Assembly (NCBI GenBank): GCA_024220505.1
Contig: JAKZZE010000005.1
Span: 518,501-582,500, forward strand
Source of the DNA: Rhizopus arrhizus
Lineage: Eukaryota > Mucoromycota > Mucoromycetes > Mucorales > Rhizopodaceae
DNA length: 64,000 bases
Direction of reading: 5' to 3'
Positions 9,048 to 38,700 of the stretch are shown piece after piece. A model generated the notes under the pieces. The model did no database searches. It had not been told where the DNA came from and saw only the letters and a program-made list of their open reading frames with translations. A program made the position numbers and the translations under genes. Within the stretch, counting starts at the first letter, position 1. Every line of letters starts with the position of its first letter.

Positions 9048-10184
9048 TTATATTAACGATATTCGTGTCTTTGTTAAACCACCACCAAAGTTTTTTAAAG
9101 GCTGTGGTATCTGTTGAAGTCTTCGGAAGGCTTCATGAATATATTCTGGTAGCAAAGGTGTCTGTTCAGATTTTGACGGTGTAAACAAACCCTGAGAATC
9201 AAAAGTAGATGAATTTTCTGATTCAAGCGATTGATCTTCAACTGTTCCGTCCACTGATGTCACTGTGATCATCAGTGAATCATTAAGCCATTCTCTTCGT
9301 TTTGTATCTTTTTTGTTTTCTTGTTCAACTTTTATCCTCTTGTGCCCCAATCCTTTAGGTTCATCCTCTTGTTCACCTGCTGCTTCCATCACATCTCGTT
9401 TTATTTTGATCGCCGTCAAAGTTATTTTAGATACTATTTCGTACGCCAAGAATCCCAAACAATCTATAATATCATCATTAGGCTTTATGTCTACAATAGA
9501 GCTCATGTTGACCCAGTCACGAAACTTTTTGCTTTTGCGATAAGTAAATGATGCTTGTCTACATTCAGAATAGTGAACGTATTCCTCCTTTGTCATGACA
9601 CGCGTTACTTCATCAGCGTCCTTGAGTTGCTGAATAGATTCCTTATAAGCTTCTGTTTCATCATCATCCTCTGAATCTTCTTCTCCATTGATTGATTTGG
9701 CAATAACATCAGAGAATTGATTGACGAGTTCCCAAGGTAACTTGATAATACTCCGGTGTAGTTTCCCTTTATTTATTTTTCTAAATTTACTCTTTTTCTC
9801 TTCTTCTTTTCATTACCTGTGTTTGATTCTCCTACAACATCGTCTATTTGATCCCCAGAAGCATCTTTTGCATTTTTACGGACGTCTTTCCAACTCAAAA
9901 AAGAACGTAACCGATTGACTTTGGCACGATCATGTCGCATCAAAAAGATCAAATCTTCACCACTCAGATGTCTGGAATTCCTACGACTTGCTTGTGCTGC
10001 AGCTTGTATAATCTAATAAAATGCTTCAACAAGAAAACAAGAATAAATAACAAGTATAAAATACAATTTCAATGATCTGAGAACGAACGATATCTTCTAC
10101 AAGCAGAGTAGTTTCTTGTAAAGGATCTGATACTTCGCCAAAAACAAACATCATTTGTTGGATTTCTCCTTGAAAGCAATACAT
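9048..10184 (-). CDS. SPT3: SAGA/SLIK transcription subunit Spt3
   Basis: Exons 10184-10065, 10012-9817 and 9766-9048 give 344 residues, close to the size of yeast Spt3. The N-terminus reads MYCFQGEIQQMMFVFGE, the start of the first histone fold, followed by VEDIVRSQIIEI and HLSGEDLIFLMRHD. The second, C-terminal fold contains ECRQASFTYRKSKKF, a near-invariant Spt3 signature. Spt3 sits in the SAGA coactivator and helps deliver TBP to promoters. An in-frame stop directly upstream supports the chosen start. The basic linker around 9750-9820 could be spliced differently; the 50-nt intron used here keeps the frame open. Confidence 0.93.
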
Positions 10185-30106: not shown

Positions 30107-31633
30107 ATGAGTACCAAGATAAGCAACGAAATCAAAGATTTAGATCAAGAATCTCTACATACTCTACATGAAATCCGCAGAGGTGGACGTAAATCGCTTT
30201 ATATGGCTGGTATCATTGCTGCCGGTGGTGGATTTGTTGTAGGTTTTGATACGGGTGCTATTTCGGGAACAATGGTTCTTGAATCATTTGTGAATAGATT
30301 TTTGAATGTGGATACTGAATATAGAAATGCACTACTTGTAGCAATGATGCTCTTAACGGCTACTATTGGTGGCTTAATATCTGGCAATGTTTGTGGTAAT
30401 TTTTTTTTTTTTTTGCGTTTGTGTGGTCATTAAAAACAAATTCTTCTAGATTATATTGGTCGAAAGTACACTATTTTACTTGGAACATGGGTTTTTGCTA
30501 TTGGCGCTCTATTTGAAACAATTGGTTACAACTTTGGACTATTAATGGCTGGCCGTTTACTAGTTGGTTTTGGTGAAGGATTTTTGACAAACGCTATTCC
30601 TCTTTACCATACAGAAATTGCTCCTCCTGATATCCGAGGTCGTTTGATTACTCTTTTTAGTGCTACAGCTTCTATTGGTACCATTGCGGGATTTTTTGTC
30701 AATTTTGGAACATCCTATCTTACCACTGACTGGTCATGGCGTGTTCCTTTTTTGATTCAGCTCATTACCTGTGTGTTGCTCTCTATTGTTTACTGGTTAC
30801 CATTTTCTCCTCGTTGGCTAATTGACAAGGGTCGTGAAGAAGAAGCCTTGGAGGTCTTGGCCAAGTTACACGAATCAACCATTGACGATCCTGAAGTAAA
30901 GAACGAATTTAGAAGTATTTGTGAAGAAATCGAAGTTGAGCGATCATTTGGTAACCGTACCTTTGCTGAATGCTTCCGAGGTAGCAATTTGAAGCGTACT
31001 ATGTATGCCTTGTTTACTGGTAACGGCGCTGCTTTCACGGGAACTTATTCCATTAGTTATTATACACCACAAATCTTTCAACAGGCTGGTTTGAACGACG
31101 TGGCAATTTCTTTGGTAACAAGTGGTGCAAGCAACATCTTGGTCTTGATTTTTACCATGCTTACTTTATTTTTTATTGACAAGCTTGGACGTCAAGGTGT
31201 GTTTGCTTCAGGTGCTTTTATCATGGGGGCTTCCATGTATGTGGTAGGAGGCATTTTTCAAGGCTTCAACACTGTAGACAATGAAGGTAATCTAAGTCTA
31301 TCTAATGATCATGCTCGAAACTGTGTCATTGCGTTCGTCTTTATCTTTCAAGCCGCCTATGCCTATAGTTGGGGACCTGTTGCTTATATATACCCTGCTG
31401 AAATATCAAATATGCGAACTCGTGCAAAGACCATCGCTCTTGCTTATGGTTTGAATTGGGCTATTGGTATCTTTATGACCTTTATCATGCCTATCTTTAT
31501 GACAAATACAATCTATGGTGGTTATTATTTCTTTGGTGGTTGTTGTACTCTCTTATTCTTTGGAAGTTTCTTCCTTCCTGAAACAAAAGGCAAGACGCTC
31601 GAAGAGATTGACCGTATCTTTAATCCAATGTAA
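30107..31633 (+). CDS. MFS sugar-porter-family transporter, substrate site unlike hexose carriers
   Basis: Two exons (30107-30395, 30450-31633) give 490 residues with about 12 membrane helices. Family signatures are present: GFDTGAISGTM in TM1, DYIGRKYTI in loop 2-3, GRLLVGFGEG, PRWLIDKGREEEA in the central loop and FFLPETKGKTLEEID at the end. In TM7, hexose carriers have QQxxGxN before the YYxPxIF motif; here the aligned residues are AAFTGTY before YYTPQIF. Loss of the glutamine pair and asparagine argues against glucose as the substrate. A TPP riboswitch aptamer starts 210 nt after the stop codon on the same strand. I infer uptake of thiamine or a precursor; a divergent polyol or inositol carrier remains possible. 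Confidence 0.9.
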
Positions 31634-31661
31634 CAGCAAAAATCAGGCCCTAGAAGAAGAA

Positions 31662-31667
31662 AATAAA
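31662..31667 (+). terminator. proximal polyadenylation signal AATAAA
   Basis: A canonical AATAAA lies 29 nt after the transporter stop codon and upstream of the riboswitch. Further AATAAA copies lie downstream (about 32190 and 32232). A choice between proximal and distal 3' ends would decide whether the aptamer is part of the mRNA. Confidence 0.45.
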
Positions 31668-31842
31668 TCTATATATTGTTCATATCGCCTCTGGTTTTTC
31701 TTCAGGTACAAAAAAAAAGAGAAGAAAAGGTAAATCAAACAGATCTATGGCTTCTTCTCTATTCAATAGGTTACCTCACCTGAAGAAAACTATGCGTAAG
31801 GGCAAGTATTTTTATTAACTAATGTTGTACATAAAAAGAACA

Positions 31843-31921
31843 ACCGAGGGGTGCCAACTTGTTAATCAGTTTGGCTGAGATCATACCCTTAAGAGCGGAT
31901 CATGGTAATGCATGCGTCGCA
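31843..31921 (+). promoter_or_regulatory. TPP (THI-box) riboswitch aptamer
   Basis: The conserved blocks appear in order: GGGGTGCC at 31848-31855, a P3 hairpin (AACT...AGTT), GGCTGAGA at 31873-31880, ATACCC at 31883-31888 pairing back to GGGGT, and GGATCATGGTAATGCATGCG at 31897-31916. The CTGAGA box binds the pyrimidine of thiamine pyrophosphate; the GATC..GGTAAT..GCG region forms P4/P5 that holds the pyrophosphate. P1 is weak by eye. In fungi such aptamers usually sit in 5'-UTR introns of thiamine genes and control splicing. This one lies 3' of an MFS gene and about 560 nt before the next start codon. A strong acceptor (TTCTCTTTTCACAG, ending 32067) lies downstream and several GT donors lie upstream (31705, 31729, 31795). 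Confidence 0.88.
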
Positions 31922-32478
31922 ATGTGTTTTCTTTTTTCGTACAAACACATACTTTAGATACAGCCACCAACCTAATCTTCATGGTCCCTTGCATGATATT
32001 TGCATATGTATAAATTACATGTTTAGTCAGATTCAGGTTTGTATCAGTTTACGTTCTCTTTTCACAGGGTTGGTGGATTTTGTATATTTCAAACGAATGG
32101 GTAAATCTTTCTTCCTCGGTATGTTTTTTTTTTTTTTTGTTTTTTTATGTGGTAATTGTGAGTATGGGATGTGTTGCTTTTATTTTTACAATAAAGATTT
32201 TTTTTATAAAACTTTTTTTTTTCTTTTCTAATAAACCATTGATATACAAAATAAAAGGAGAAAGGGAATGCCAGTTATTTTTTTCTATTCATGATAATAA
32301 ACCATTTTTAGGCGTTGTATCCTTTTGAGTAACACCAAGTTTTTTATAGAATGTCAATTAGTTGATTGTTTCTGTTAAGTTTAAAGGGAGTGAGAATAAA
32401 GTGACTTTCTAAGAGTTCTTGCTATCAAGTTTTTTTTTTTGTTCCTCTTCAATCTCTATCTTATTTACATTTTTCAAC
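31922..32478. other. intergenic downstream of the riboswitch
   Basis: AT-rich with several poly-T runs (about 32126-32147 and 32430-32440). It contains the candidate 3' splice acceptor ending at 32067, distal AATAAA signals near 32190 and 32232, and the promoter of the next gene. The small frames here are poly-Phe translations of T runs and are not believable proteins. Confidence 0.4.
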
Positions 32479-35400
32479 ATGGACACTACCAAAATCATTT
32501 TCTTGATCGACATTCAGTGCATCTTAAAAGATCATTTATCAACCAAACAGCTAAAATTAGCTCTTCAACGCATTTGTCTTTACTACCATTTGCAAGATCA
32601 ATCGAAGATAATTGTTTGGAGTTATCGATTATTTGATACTCTAGCAAATTACATGCTTTCCAACACACCAGAACTTTATGAGCTTGAGGATCTTGTCGAT
32701 GTCAAAGATCTAATTGAAAAAGATTGTGAACGATACAGCTCTTCCTCTTCTAGCTCAAGTGACGCGCCTTTCACGCGTCTTAAACAAGTCATGAAAGAAC
32801 TTTTTGGTGACTTCTCGTGGGAAGTTGACCACAATGTTGTCAAAAGCAGAGATAGTAGCAAAAAACATCCTCCACAACAAAAGCATCATGTCTATGCATT
32901 CATGCCTCTACCGCACACTTTTCCTGACTTGACCCACTTCTTTACAAATGTGAAAGGTGATAAGAAAAGTTACCATGCTGGTTTTCCTGAGGCCAGTGAA
33001 CTATTCATTAACATGAAGCGTGAACTGGTCAGTACCTTTTCTGAAAGCTTCAGACAAAGACATATTGGCTTTAATTTAGTAGATACTGATTTTAAGTTTG
33101 ATCGAGTTATGGTACAGCAAAAGTTATATGATGACTTTATCGGTCGCGGCTTTCAATTGTCACTTCAAGAGTTCAATGGACGTTACATCTTATTCAACTC
33201 ACTTATACAGAATTACAATAGATATGGTTATCATTTTTTTCCTGAACTTCAAGAACTTTTGACACCAAGAAGAATGATGCTACCTTCACATCATCCTGAG
33301 AGCCGCCCAATAAAAAAGAGGCATTTGATAAATACACAGCAAGACAGTCAATTGTCTACCCAAGGATCTTATTCTTCTCAATTTGATACAAAACGAGATT
33401 TTGATAAATCGTTACTTGCCCAAAACACCTCTGTTGTCCGTAGCAATGCTTATCCGCTCTGGAAAGGCCCACTCAAGACGTGGAAGGGACGAAGCGTTGG
33501 TAAGGCGCACATTCACCCATTTTACAAATCAAACACAAACTACAATCCGTACATTTTCTCTTTATGCTCTACTATTGAGCTCCATCCTGCTATTGACCGT
33601 GTCCAATTTGACCTTTCCTGGCTTCGTTATACCCGATTGGATCAGCAAGACAATGATTTCATTATGATTCCTGATTTTGATAATGGTCCTTGTACTCTTT
33701 TTATGGATTTTATGGATGGCCTCTATACAAATGGACAGATAGGAATGGCTCAATTAGTCCCTTTTAAGAAAGCAAACGTGACCAACCAAGTGATGTGCAT
33801 CTTGCCAATGACCAAAGGCTGTGCTGTTGTTCGTTTTCTGAATATTACGCAGATACCTTCAGTCGAATCACTTTCTTACCATTCTGCGGAGACCTTGAAC
33901 ATCTTTTTTCACAAGCAATCCATATCTACCCTGCATGAGATTTATCATGATGTGAAAGCAGATAAAAGAGAAAGAATGCCGTTAAATGTGACTCCTTCAG
34001 ATGAGTTGAAGCAGATTGTATTGGAGCATAAAAAGCAGATGGACGAAGAAAAGAATAACAAGTCTGGAAATAAAAAGGCAAATGATGGTGGCACTCAGAA
34101 AGAAGAGGAAGAGGAAATGGTCATCAAGTTGCCTCAGAATACTGATGGATTTAAAGAAGCAATTGAAGGCTTATACTTTGAAACTCTATATGAAAGAAAG
34201 GTAATGGATTTCTTATTCATAATAAAAGTTGAGTTGACATACTTTATATATAGAATGACATTGATATGTTTACATATATGGTTGATCACTTTGTTAAACA
34301 CATGGTTGAAAAGAAAATGAGCTCTGCTCAAGAGGTTATTGAAGTATTAAAGAACATTGCACAAGAATGTCATAAGCTGGATGATAAGCATCAACTTAAA
34401 ATTAAAGTGAATAGAATAGCAGAAAAGCCCGTTACGAATGAAAAGGAAGATGGCTACATATACGACTGGTGGCAAAAAATCAAAGAGCAAGAGCTTGATG
34501 ATGAAACGGAAGAAGAGAATTTAATATTATTGAGAGTAACAGAGTAAGTTTATTACAAAGCCAAAATGATCAAGCCTTCTTATTATTCGACAATAATTAG
34601 TGCAAGAATCAATACTATTTTATATTGTTTCTTGGCACAGTTAACGAGGAAACATCTATCAGAGAATAGTCAATCAACAGAACAGGAAGTAAAAAGTTTT
34701 ATAAAGCAAGCTTCTGGCAATTACGAAACAACTGCCATTTTGCCACCCACTATGGAAATTGCTCTAAAAGTAGATAGTGAGCTTGATGAAGTAGATAAAG
34801 ATGTATATAATTTTCTTTATTTATTAGAAAATTGGTAAGTGTTTGCGTTAAAACATAAAAAGACATTTCCTTTACCATCTTTTAACAGGTTCAAAAAGGA
34901 CATACCGGAATTTACAGACGAATTAAGAGAGAATTATTATGATGAGTTAGTTCCTACAACTTACTTAGATGGTGCTAATATTCCTCTTCTCCTTCGCGAT
35001 TATATGAGTAAGCCATTTACATAGCCAACCTGCACTTGGTCTTTAATTTCTTTTGGTTTATTAGGCCAAGAATTGGAGAAGCCTAAAACAAATGAAAAGA
35101 CGTTATTAGAATTATTGGCAGAGGAAAAAGCATCAAAGACAACAAGGCAAAGCTCACTTGATAACATGTTTAAAACGGTTGAGGTGATCCGAAGCAAGCA
35201 GCATGAGAAAGATCGCGTGGGTGAAGCTACAAAGCAAGCGATTGATAAAGTCAATCGGTCTATAGTAGATGGTAAGCCAACCATGAGACGAGCTGGCGGA
35301 TTCCTTGTGAGCGCTGTTAGCCCTGAAAGAAGAGCATCAGAGCCATCCACGAGAAAGAAAGAATTTGATCCTTCTTTGACGCCAAGGTCATCTTTAAATC

Positions 35401-35748: not shown

Positions 35749-38700
35749 TCAATCAGTAATAGTGCCAAGCAACATACTTGCCAGTTTAGCGTTTGCAATT
35801 ATATTTGTTTTTACAGCACCAAATGTAGGGTCGGCTAGAGCAAGGAATCTTAAATTTTCAAGTCCTGATTGCTGTGTGTGTTTCTGTTTTGTATCGGGAA
35901 GAAATGCTTGTCCAGAGCATGTAGTCAATAATATGTTCTTTACTGCATCAATCACTTCGCTGTTTTTACTATTGAGTACTATTTGATTCATTTTAGGGAG
36001 TAAGGTCTCATAGCTATATATCATTCAGAGTGAGATGTTAGAATCATATCTTTCTTATTAAAGAATATCTTACACTAAGGCGAAGGCTTCTTGAACAGAG
36101 GTAGCAGCATCTGCAAGCAAGTTGTACAAGAAAAGCCTGTCTGATTCAGTTTCTGAAGCGTTCAATAATGTAACTAACATTGAGACCAAGAGCAGAGCTG
36201 TATTGTTATCGGGAATTTCTAAAAAGTCAAAGAGACCAGCATTTGACAAGCCCAAATCAATGTTTTCCATATCTATCTCCTTAAATCCAGCTAGTTTCAG
36301 CAGTTTATCCAAGGAATTATCTTTTGACGCAAAAGGAAGTAAGCCAGCCAAGTACCCTAACGTGCGTGCTTCTATAAATCCACTTTCAGTAGATTGCCTG
36401 GAGTCTATCTCAAGAAATGCGCAGAGACATTGATAAACAGTATCTTTTGTTTCACATTGTTTCAAGCCCTTCAATAGAATAACAGCAACAGCAAAGGAAA
36501 AATAATCATTAAAGTTTACACCGCATGCATTATCTATATCAAGTGCAAACATTTCTAAACCACTTCTAGCTTCCAACAGTACTTTTTCGACTGACCTATT
36601 CTCAAACATTTTCCTTGAATCAAGCGCACGAAGCACAGAGTGCAGGAACCCTACAGCAGTTTGAAAGATAGAAGGATGGCCTATCTGAATAAGAGCAATT
36701 GCCAGCCAAAAAAGATGCAGAACATAACGAGAATCTGCAGGGAGATTGTCGATGATGTTGGTTAAACACATCGTGATACTTATAATCAAGTTGGGCTCTG
36801 TTTCGATAAAGATGGATAATGCACCTTTAAGAGCAACCAGCATTTGATACAAGAGATCATCATCCACCTCATCTTGAGAAAGGCAACCTAACGTAACAAA
36901 GGCTCTTGGTTGAATAGCTGGATTAAAATAAAATGCAGTACTGGTAACCAAACTCATCCATCTGGCTCTCCACATATTTGCAATTTCAGAGGTAGCTGCG
37001 CCATAGGTCAAAGTACTCAATAAGAGTCTAACAATGTTTTGTAAAGACGGGAGGTTAATAGAGTCAGCGAAGTCCGTTGTTGTTTCTTTTGTTATAGTAA
37101 ATGCATTGGCTGTTTGCTTTGTAAGACCAAAAAGAACGCGATTTTTGCTATCACAGACATCATTCAAAACATACTGGAGTTTTTTCATATTTTCTTCAGG
37201 TAGTGTGGTATTCATTGTACAAAGATTGTGAATGGTATTTACAACAAGTTCGTGTACGGAGGATCGAATGAAGGTAGGGCCAGTCACGACCAGAATGGAC
37301 ACAATATGATATATCTCTGGTACATGGGATATCATGGGCTCCTCGTTGTTGAATGAAAGCATTAATATAAACCGAAGAATGACCGCAATTTCATTCCAAG
37401 ATGGGTGATCAACTAGCTGTCTACATGGCTGCCTGGATGTACCTTCTATGAGTCGTCTCATTCTGCTGATCACTTTACTTCGAATTTGCATGCTGGACAT
37501 AGTTACCAAAGCATCTGTAACCATCTCTGCTTGAATAGATCCTGGCCCTTTTTCAACAGAATACTGTATAAAGCAATCAAGCACCATATCAATAATCTCG
37601 TTGACTTCTGCCAATGTTTTCCAAACTTTAGCTTGAATTTGTTTATAGAGCTAAAAATAAACGATATAAAACATTTAGACATGTTATAAAGGATAAATCT
37701 GTTTTCAGGTATACATACCCTCGTGTCTTTTATCATCAGGTCAATTAATCGCATGATAATCTCCTGCGTTTTTGCCACACTCAAGCTATGGTCCTCAGGT
37801 TTACGTTCCATAAATCTTCCTATATTTTGAAGCCAAGGTATTATATAGTCTAAGCACAGCTCTTGCATGAGTTCTGATGACTTTGATAATCCAACTAGAG
37901 CTTCATCCAAAAATTCCAACGTCAAGTGCGACTCAGTCTGTGCTAATCTCTTACTTGTAGATACTATAAAGCTGGTACTATTGGATGGTATACATAAGTC
38001 TAGCAATTATACTATGTTAATTACCAATGAAATAAAAACCGTATGTGCGGCTTTATGTCTTACCTCTCGCATTCAATAACTGATTACCGATATTAAACTT
38101 GAATGAATGGCTCAAAGAATACAGCAGGTTATAAGCAGCCAAGCGGAGACTGTGATCAGTGCTCCCCATATTTAAAAATGCCATATTCAGCAATCGTCCT
38201 GGGACATCATTAGGTCGTATTGTGCGTTCATTCATGTTACTAGGCTTGGATGCTTCATATTGCTGCTTATTACCATTAAGATGCTAAATGAAGCATTGTT
38301 TTAGTTGTTTTTATAGCCTTATTATTTTAACATATTCACTTACGGAAATTATGATATCTCGATGAGGAGACGATAAAACTACAGTAGACTTTCCTTTATC
38401 ATACTTGATTAATAGCTTCTTTCCGCTTTCTGATCTTGTGGATGGCAAGGCTGCTATCTCTTCACATTCAGATATATGGTAAACATCCCTAAAAACGGTG
38501 TAAAGGCCATCAATTAATTTCTGTTTTTTCACCTATTGAATAAATTAAATTAGTGTCTTATATTTTCCAAGGAGACAGTAAGTTATGAATTTACTGTAAT
38601 AAGCTGAACTTCTTCCGAGCTAATCTTCATAGTGACTGGTATGGAACTATTTGCTTTATCAAACCTCATTACAGACTGTATTACTACATTACTATTTCTT

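Follow-up and report, generated by a model that had tools for sequence, protein, structure and literature searches.

Sequence comparison points to a genuine TPP riboswitch in the 3′ UTR of a sugar-porter gene in the 64-kb window (the whole stretch of DNA that was analyzed), one of four found in this fungus, all of which lie behind their genes. The aptamer belongs to a known class; new in fungi, as far as we have seen, are the 3′ rule and the accompanying platform with a candidate anti-aptamer strand. A 3′-UTR riboswitch that acts on 3′-end formation or mRNA fate is the best explanation of the element, a tentative preference that falls slightly short of even confidence.

The aptamer and its host gene

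The element was located with cmscan and Rfam at window positions 31837-31939 on the plus strand, where it matches positions 1-105 of the TPP model (RF00059) at 53.5 bits, with an E-value of 1.6e-9 for 901 nt and of 2.1e-8 for the 50.26-Mb genome (41 contigs). The gathering score is 54.3, which this match misses by 0.8 bit, and therefore a scan of the whole 64-kb window, run at the gathering threshold only, came back empty. The covariance-model check that the earlier note had proposed thus has a divided outcome: by the letter it goes against the element, while the E-value and a duplicate copy that reaches 57.4 bits, over the cutoff, go in its favor. Despite the sub-threshold score, we judge the element to be a real TPP aptamer because of its E-value, its intact conserved blocks, and that duplicate. 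The conserved letters and the P2, P4, and P5 stems of the class are all present, and the overall architecture is P1-P5 with a short P3 and no P3a. Of the five P1 pairs, two are non-standard in each transporter copy, as aligned to the Rfam model. The THI-box blocks lie where the earlier note had placed them, and the distance from the stop codon at 31633 to 31843 is indeed 210 nt.

The gene in front of the aptamer encodes a sugar-porter (MFS) transporter and occupies 30107-31633 on the plus strand, with exons at 30107-30395 and 30450-31633 whose ends were read by eye. The aptamer match begins 203 nt past its stop. Pfam Sugar_tr scores 321 bits on P0001, a protein 99% identical to the window transporter. 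The closest relative is a Rhizopus delemar protein (99% identical), and the four proteins listed after it, which belong to Rhizopus species and Sporodiniella, are 84-88% identical. The closest relatives are thus in Mucorales, and by protein identity the genome most probably belongs to the R. delemar group.

The genome-wide set and known TPP riboswitches

A genome search with RF00059 returned four TPP aptamers with E-values from 2.4e-9 to 7.3e-6; it scored 49 of 1334 first-look candidates, and unusual aptamers may have been missed. The highest score, 57.4 bits, belongs to the aptamer behind a duplicate of the transporter gene (C1; 161 nt from stop to match) and is the only one over the cutoff. 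After the window copy come an aptamer behind THI4 (C23; 49.6 bits) and another behind NMT1/THI5 (C3; 43.2 bits), each 91 nt past the stop. A position 3′ of the coding region is therefore common to all four aptamers detected in this one genome, which upholds the earlier placement of the window aptamer behind its MFS transporter gene. No further TPP elements were found at E 0.001 in the 10-kb loci of the duplicate transporter, THI4, and NMT1, and a comparison of two aptamer patterns and the transporter alignment with viral contigs gave no matches. The conserved CUGAGA and GCG letters are invariant in all four aptamers. P4 and P5 are built from different letters in the THI4 and NMT1 copies, with one mismatch in P4 of NMT1, and P3 mismatches across the four number 1, 0, 2, and 3 in a register set by hand.

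One strong Thi4-family match (333 bits) was found in the genome, plus two weaker matches elsewhere that are close to the cutoff. NMT1 is a single gene of two exons, and beyond two close copies of the transporter (99 and 89% over exon 2) the nearest match is at 44%. The THI4 protein is matched better by PDB chain 1rp0 (434 bits; Arabidopsis) than by 3jsk (356 bits) and 3fpz (304 bits), both ascomycete.

Among the closest known systems is plant THIC, which carries a TPP riboswitch in its 3′ UTR. What the fungal loci share with it is a thiamine gene followed by a TPP aptamer and flanking poly(A) signals. They differ in their targets (a sugar porter, THI4, and NMT1), in the long-range candidate anti-aptamer strand downstream, and in that the intron parts of the window copy are not conserved in the duplicate.

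TPP switches linked to sugar transporters in Mucoromycota (TPPsw-SUGAR) have been described, in the portion of the 2024 paper available to us, as consistently located in the 5′ UTR and mainly of type I (PMC11683625). The present transporter element shares with them a short-P3 aptamer tied to a sugar transporter (Pfam Sugar_tr) in this phylum, but departs from the 5′-UTR position stated there, as both copies here have the aptamer 3′ of the gene. According to the accessible text of a 2018 paper, TPP switches of fungi sit in the 5′ UTR or inside introns, and NMT1 of a Mucor is mentioned (PMC5882874). Both surveys, in the text consulted, present splicing as the main mode of action. The types that it describes are like ours in the aptamer, in having NMT1 and THI4 as targets and, for one type, in long-distance base pairing; they differ in location, being in the 5′ UTR or an internal intron and not 3′ of the gene. 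One fungal 3′-UTR case does appear in that text, an eIF5B gene pair in Postia, and it is described as unvalidated (PMC5882874). Outside fungi, prasinophytes and diatoms carry 3′-UTR TPP aptamers, according to the parts of two papers that we could consult (PMC9544697, PMC4260697). The putative diatom aptamers are all in 3′ UTRs, and one that was tested showed no thiamine response (PMC9544697, same part). These aptamers share the 3′-UTR position with ours in an unrelated lineage with mostly other targets. P1 of a diatom THIC overlaps a predicted poly(A) motif (PMC9544697, PMC4260697, as far as the same parts go), much as P1 of THI4 and NMT1 in the present genome lies near an AAUAAA. Among the literature matches listed, no paper presents a 3′-UTR position as normal for the TPP switches of any fungus.

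With four of four detected aptamers 3′ of genes in one genome, it becomes a question to which gene an aptamer belongs in each case, and how frequently surveys searching upstream have assigned it to the wrong one. The four loci are also compact, naturally occurring cases in which riboswitch control from behind the gene can be studied.

The conserved downstream platform and its predicted folding

The two transporter copies sit in a duplicated block, since a neighbor gene is common to both loci (window 36073-37614 on the minus strand and L005 2527-4068, 71% identical). In L005, a frame with a RasGAP domain lies on the same strand, further upstream. Comparison of the copies provides a measure of what has been retained. 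Over 393 codons of exon 2, identity is found at 95 of 164 fourfold sites (58%) and at 221 of 393 third positions. The aptamers agree at 77 of 78 aligned letters, and the gaps (9 of 87 columns) fall in P3. Counted from the aptamer start, the stretch from +90 to +330 has an alignment score 12.9 SD above 200 shuffled alignments, compared with 5.9 SD for the 60 nt preceding the aptamer, 3.5 SD from the stop to -60, 0.8 SD from +330 to +700, and 1.9 SD for the 400 nt upstream of the gene. The two downstream stretches also have 17, 10, and 5 exact words of 7, 8, and 9 letters in common, against shuffle means of 5.8, 1.9, and 0.7 and shuffle maxima of 16, 11, and 9. The counts of 8- and 9-letter words exceed the shuffle mean and not the shuffle maximum (10 versus 11 and 5 versus 9), and the count left out words with fewer than three different letters, including both arms of the helix described below. 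This shared-word control is weaker than the shuffled-alignment control. By this comparison of sequences, about 240 nt downstream of the aptamer is conserved between the copies.

Within this platform, a 9-bp helix is predicted between CCACCAACC (31964-31972) and GGTTGGTGG (32068-32076). Both arms are identical in the duplicate, the pair probability is 0.99-1.0 in both copies (unconstrained folding at 30 C), and a comparable stem occurs in 0.2% of shuffles. Beyond it, 46 nt from GGTTGGTGG in both copies, lies CCTCGGT (32114-32120), a candidate anti-aptamer strand. It is the exact complement of ACCGAGG (31843-31849), the P1/P2 5′ strand of the aptamer and the strand that would switch; CCTCGGT itself turns up in 0.5-0.8% of shuffles. 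In the same unconstrained folding the two strands pair with a probability of 0.96-1.0 in the window copy and 0.76-1.0 in the duplicate. Canonical P2 then has a probability of 0, and the P3 and P4-P5 stems are retained in the drawn folds. The free fold of the window copy also has the P2 3′ strand bound to ATGGGTAAA (32097-32105), a conserved, donor-like 9-mer that both copies contain and whose accessibility, with the aptamer forced, shifts in opposite directions in the two. Past the anti-aptamer strand comes a T tract (32124-32138), part of which would pair, in the free fold, with an A-rich segment immediately before the aptamer.

The real folds are 3.4 (window) and 4.3 SD (duplicate) more stable than shuffles. 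With the downstream sequence shuffled, the aptamer strand was paired as fully in 4 of 200 (window) and 9 of 200 (duplicate) cases, and it was at least 0.9 paired in 8 and 20 of 200, with means of 0.36 and 0.53. Forcing P2-P5 costs 12.9 kcal/mol in the window copy and 11.5 kcal/mol in the duplicate, a price that, in our judgment, TPP and the order of folding during transcription could pay. Neither strand of the anti-aptamer helix differs between the copies, which leaves no compensatory change, and therefore covariation speaks neither for nor against the helices. On these predictions, the conserved platform with its anti-aptamer strand is a plausible switch beside the aptamer.

Modes of action

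We propose that, without TPP, the P1/P2 5′ strand of the aptamer would pair with the anti-aptamer strand about 270 nt downstream, across the constant 9-bp helix. TPP bound during RNA synthesis would lock P1/P2 and free the anti-aptamer strand. The switch would in turn alter the making of the 3′ end or the fate of the message, and expression would presumably fall when TPP is plentiful. In THI4, P1 is predicted to run up to the first AAUAAA past the stop, so that a formed P1 would partly cover the signal. Action on 3′-end formation or mRNA fate is the mode that we infer to be most likely, and our judgment ranks ligand control of this kind first and control of splicing second. Several results count against the preferred explanation. 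The aptamer strand already finds considerable downstream pairing in shuffles (the means given above), its helix with the anti-aptamer strand shows no compensatory change, and the shared 8- and 9-letter words stay within the shuffle maximum. Forcing the aptamer has little effect on AAUAAA exposure in NMT1 and the transporters, the effect in THI4 depends on P1 being forced, and the diatom element that was tested gave no thiamine response.

The poly(A) signals themselves give uneven evidence. AATAAA does occur around the window aptamer as the earlier note had described, at 31662-31667, at 32190-32195 (the first distal one), and elsewhere, and the proximal signal is not above chance. An AATAAA between stop and aptamer was rejected as evidence because 44% (window gene) and 33% (duplicate) of shuffles have one; the corresponding values for the 130 nt from +300 are 14% and 4%. 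When the aptamer is forced in the transporter copies, exposure of the distal AAUAAA is unchanged, and that of the proximal one goes from 0.54 to 0.46 and from 0.80 to 0.80. In NMT1, an AATAAA at +134 lies 8 letters past a strong P1, and its exposure goes from 0.79 to 0.67. The larger effect is in THI4, where the P1 stem reaches the first AATAAA past the stop (+105; others are at +311 and +496) and predicted exposure falls from 0.80 in the free RNA to 0.22 with P1, P2, and P4 forced. In a series of six sequence spans at three temperatures, this drop requires P1: forcing P2 and P4 alone gave no drop in 18 of 18 settings, and forcing P1 gave one in 12 of 18, the 6 exceptions being those with short upstream context. 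Folding also suggests an upstream anti-P1 strand in THI4 (GUUGGUUGG). A bolder form of the proposal is that this lineage has its whole TPP set behind genes and dispenses with splicing, with TPP gating 3′-end formation through a P1 that covers the poly(A) signal in THI4 and NMT1 and through anti-aptamer release in the transporters. We consider this possible, if on the unlikely side, and we know of no eukaryotic riboswitch shown to gate 3′-end formation in that way.

The strongest competitor, which we regard as rather unlikely, is that TPP switches the splicing of a 3′-UTR intron holding the aptamer and a poly(A) site, as in plant THIC. Several donor-like sites in the window transporter copy favor it, as do a donor-like AAG|GTATAA directly past the NMT1 stop (by eye) and, in both transporter copies, a branch-point-like ACTAAY before the aptamer (AACTAATG at 31817-31824, TACTAACG in the duplicate) with an acceptor-like TTTAG after it (ACTTTAGATA at 31951-31960, identical in the duplicate). 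The plant-like list of parts drawn up in the earlier note fares less well. Its donors and its acceptor ending at 32067 exist in the window copy, but the upstream donors and this acceptor are not conserved: the donor-like GTs at 31730 and 31770 lie inside a stretch (31724-31775) that the duplicate is without, the GT at 31706 aligns with no GT in the duplicate, and TTTG stands at the place of the acceptor. We therefore rejected this donor and acceptor set as a conserved system. Additionally, the stop-to-aptamer stretches of the duplicate and THI4 have zero donors by the patterns used, and the best-conserved flank is the one downstream of the aptamer. An intron around the aptamer, with an upstream donor and a downstream acceptor, was by these patterns not found in the duplicate or THI4; NMT1 has a candidate donor. 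On whether forcing the aptamer exposes the conserved donor-like GGGTAAA, the copies disagree (0.17 to 0.58 versus 0.39 to 0.09). Two minor features belong to these stretches. In the THI4 locus (L007), about 45 nt past the stop and before the aptamer, 12 T followed by CCACAG make a tract that strongly resembles an acceptor, with no donor of the patterns used between the stop and the tract. At window 31707-31770 on the minus strand there is a weak match to mir-9201, 22 bits against a cutoff of 95.5, which we take as chance; its inverted repeat falls mostly in the stretch absent from the duplicate.

Less likely again is an aptamer that is retained in the 3′ UTR of the finished mRNA and alters stability, export, or translation while 3′ ends and splicing are unchanged. 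The first AATAAA past the stop in THI4 and NMT1 is just 3′ of the aptamer (+105 and +134), which would keep the aptamer within the mature mRNA. On the other side, the sequence names no effector for such a role and, to our knowledge, action of this type has no precedent among characterized eukaryotic TPP riboswitches. A conserved TPP binder without thiamine-responsive regulation seems improbable. Such a case is reported in the accessible part of a diatom study, where a THIC 3′-UTR aptamer gave no response although it is conserved (PMC9544697), but the conserved platform with its anti-aptamer strand argues otherwise here, and so does the presence of aptamers on THI4 and NMT1, genes that begin the pathway according to the part consulted of PMC5882874.

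It is very improbable that the transporter gene runs on to an alternative last exon, with the aptamer inside one of its introns. One type of fungal TPP riboswitch does act from an internal intron (PMC5882874, in the same part), but the coding regions appear from protein comparison to end where expected. Among 22 transporter relatives aligned of 120 listed, 17 end no more than 5 residues past the same C-terminal motif, and in the other five, among which P0035 has a divergent motif, the tail is about 18-33 residues long. The THI4 protein matches solved relatives through residue 287 of 305. In the second exon of NMT1, residues 1-109 or 1-110 of 144 align with THI5 proteins of solved structure, and about the last 30 residues of this exon and of the THI5 proteins are unmatched on both sides.

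We give next to no credence to the aptamer as 5′-leader sequence of the gene that begins at 32479, an option that the earlier note had raised against its own reading and that the other loci largely contradict: this gene is co-oriented with the window aptamer and begins 540 nt past it, but the duplicate retains aptamer and platform with a convergent next gene, and no co-oriented open frame of at least 150 codons starts within 2 kb 3′ at the duplicate, THI4, or NMT1 loci (a gene of short exons could escape detection), which speaks against a leader. A long co-oriented gene thus follows the aptamer in the window copy only. Aptamer-strand frames behind the duplicate have at most 106 codons and are mostly opposite the convergent gene, and the first co-oriented frame of at least 70 codons behind THI4 is at +2160 (stop-to-stop frames). 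The first 2 kb behind NMT1 contain short co-oriented frames of 72 codons at +328 and of 90 codons at +1205, and we take both as chance. Farther out, about 2.5 and 4.3 kb 3′ of NMT1, two open frames in opposite orientation (L008 7498-8058 on the plus strand and 9243-9803 on the minus strand) are identical in their first 60 residues, and the one at 7498-8058 matches a DDE_3 transposase at 70.5 bits.
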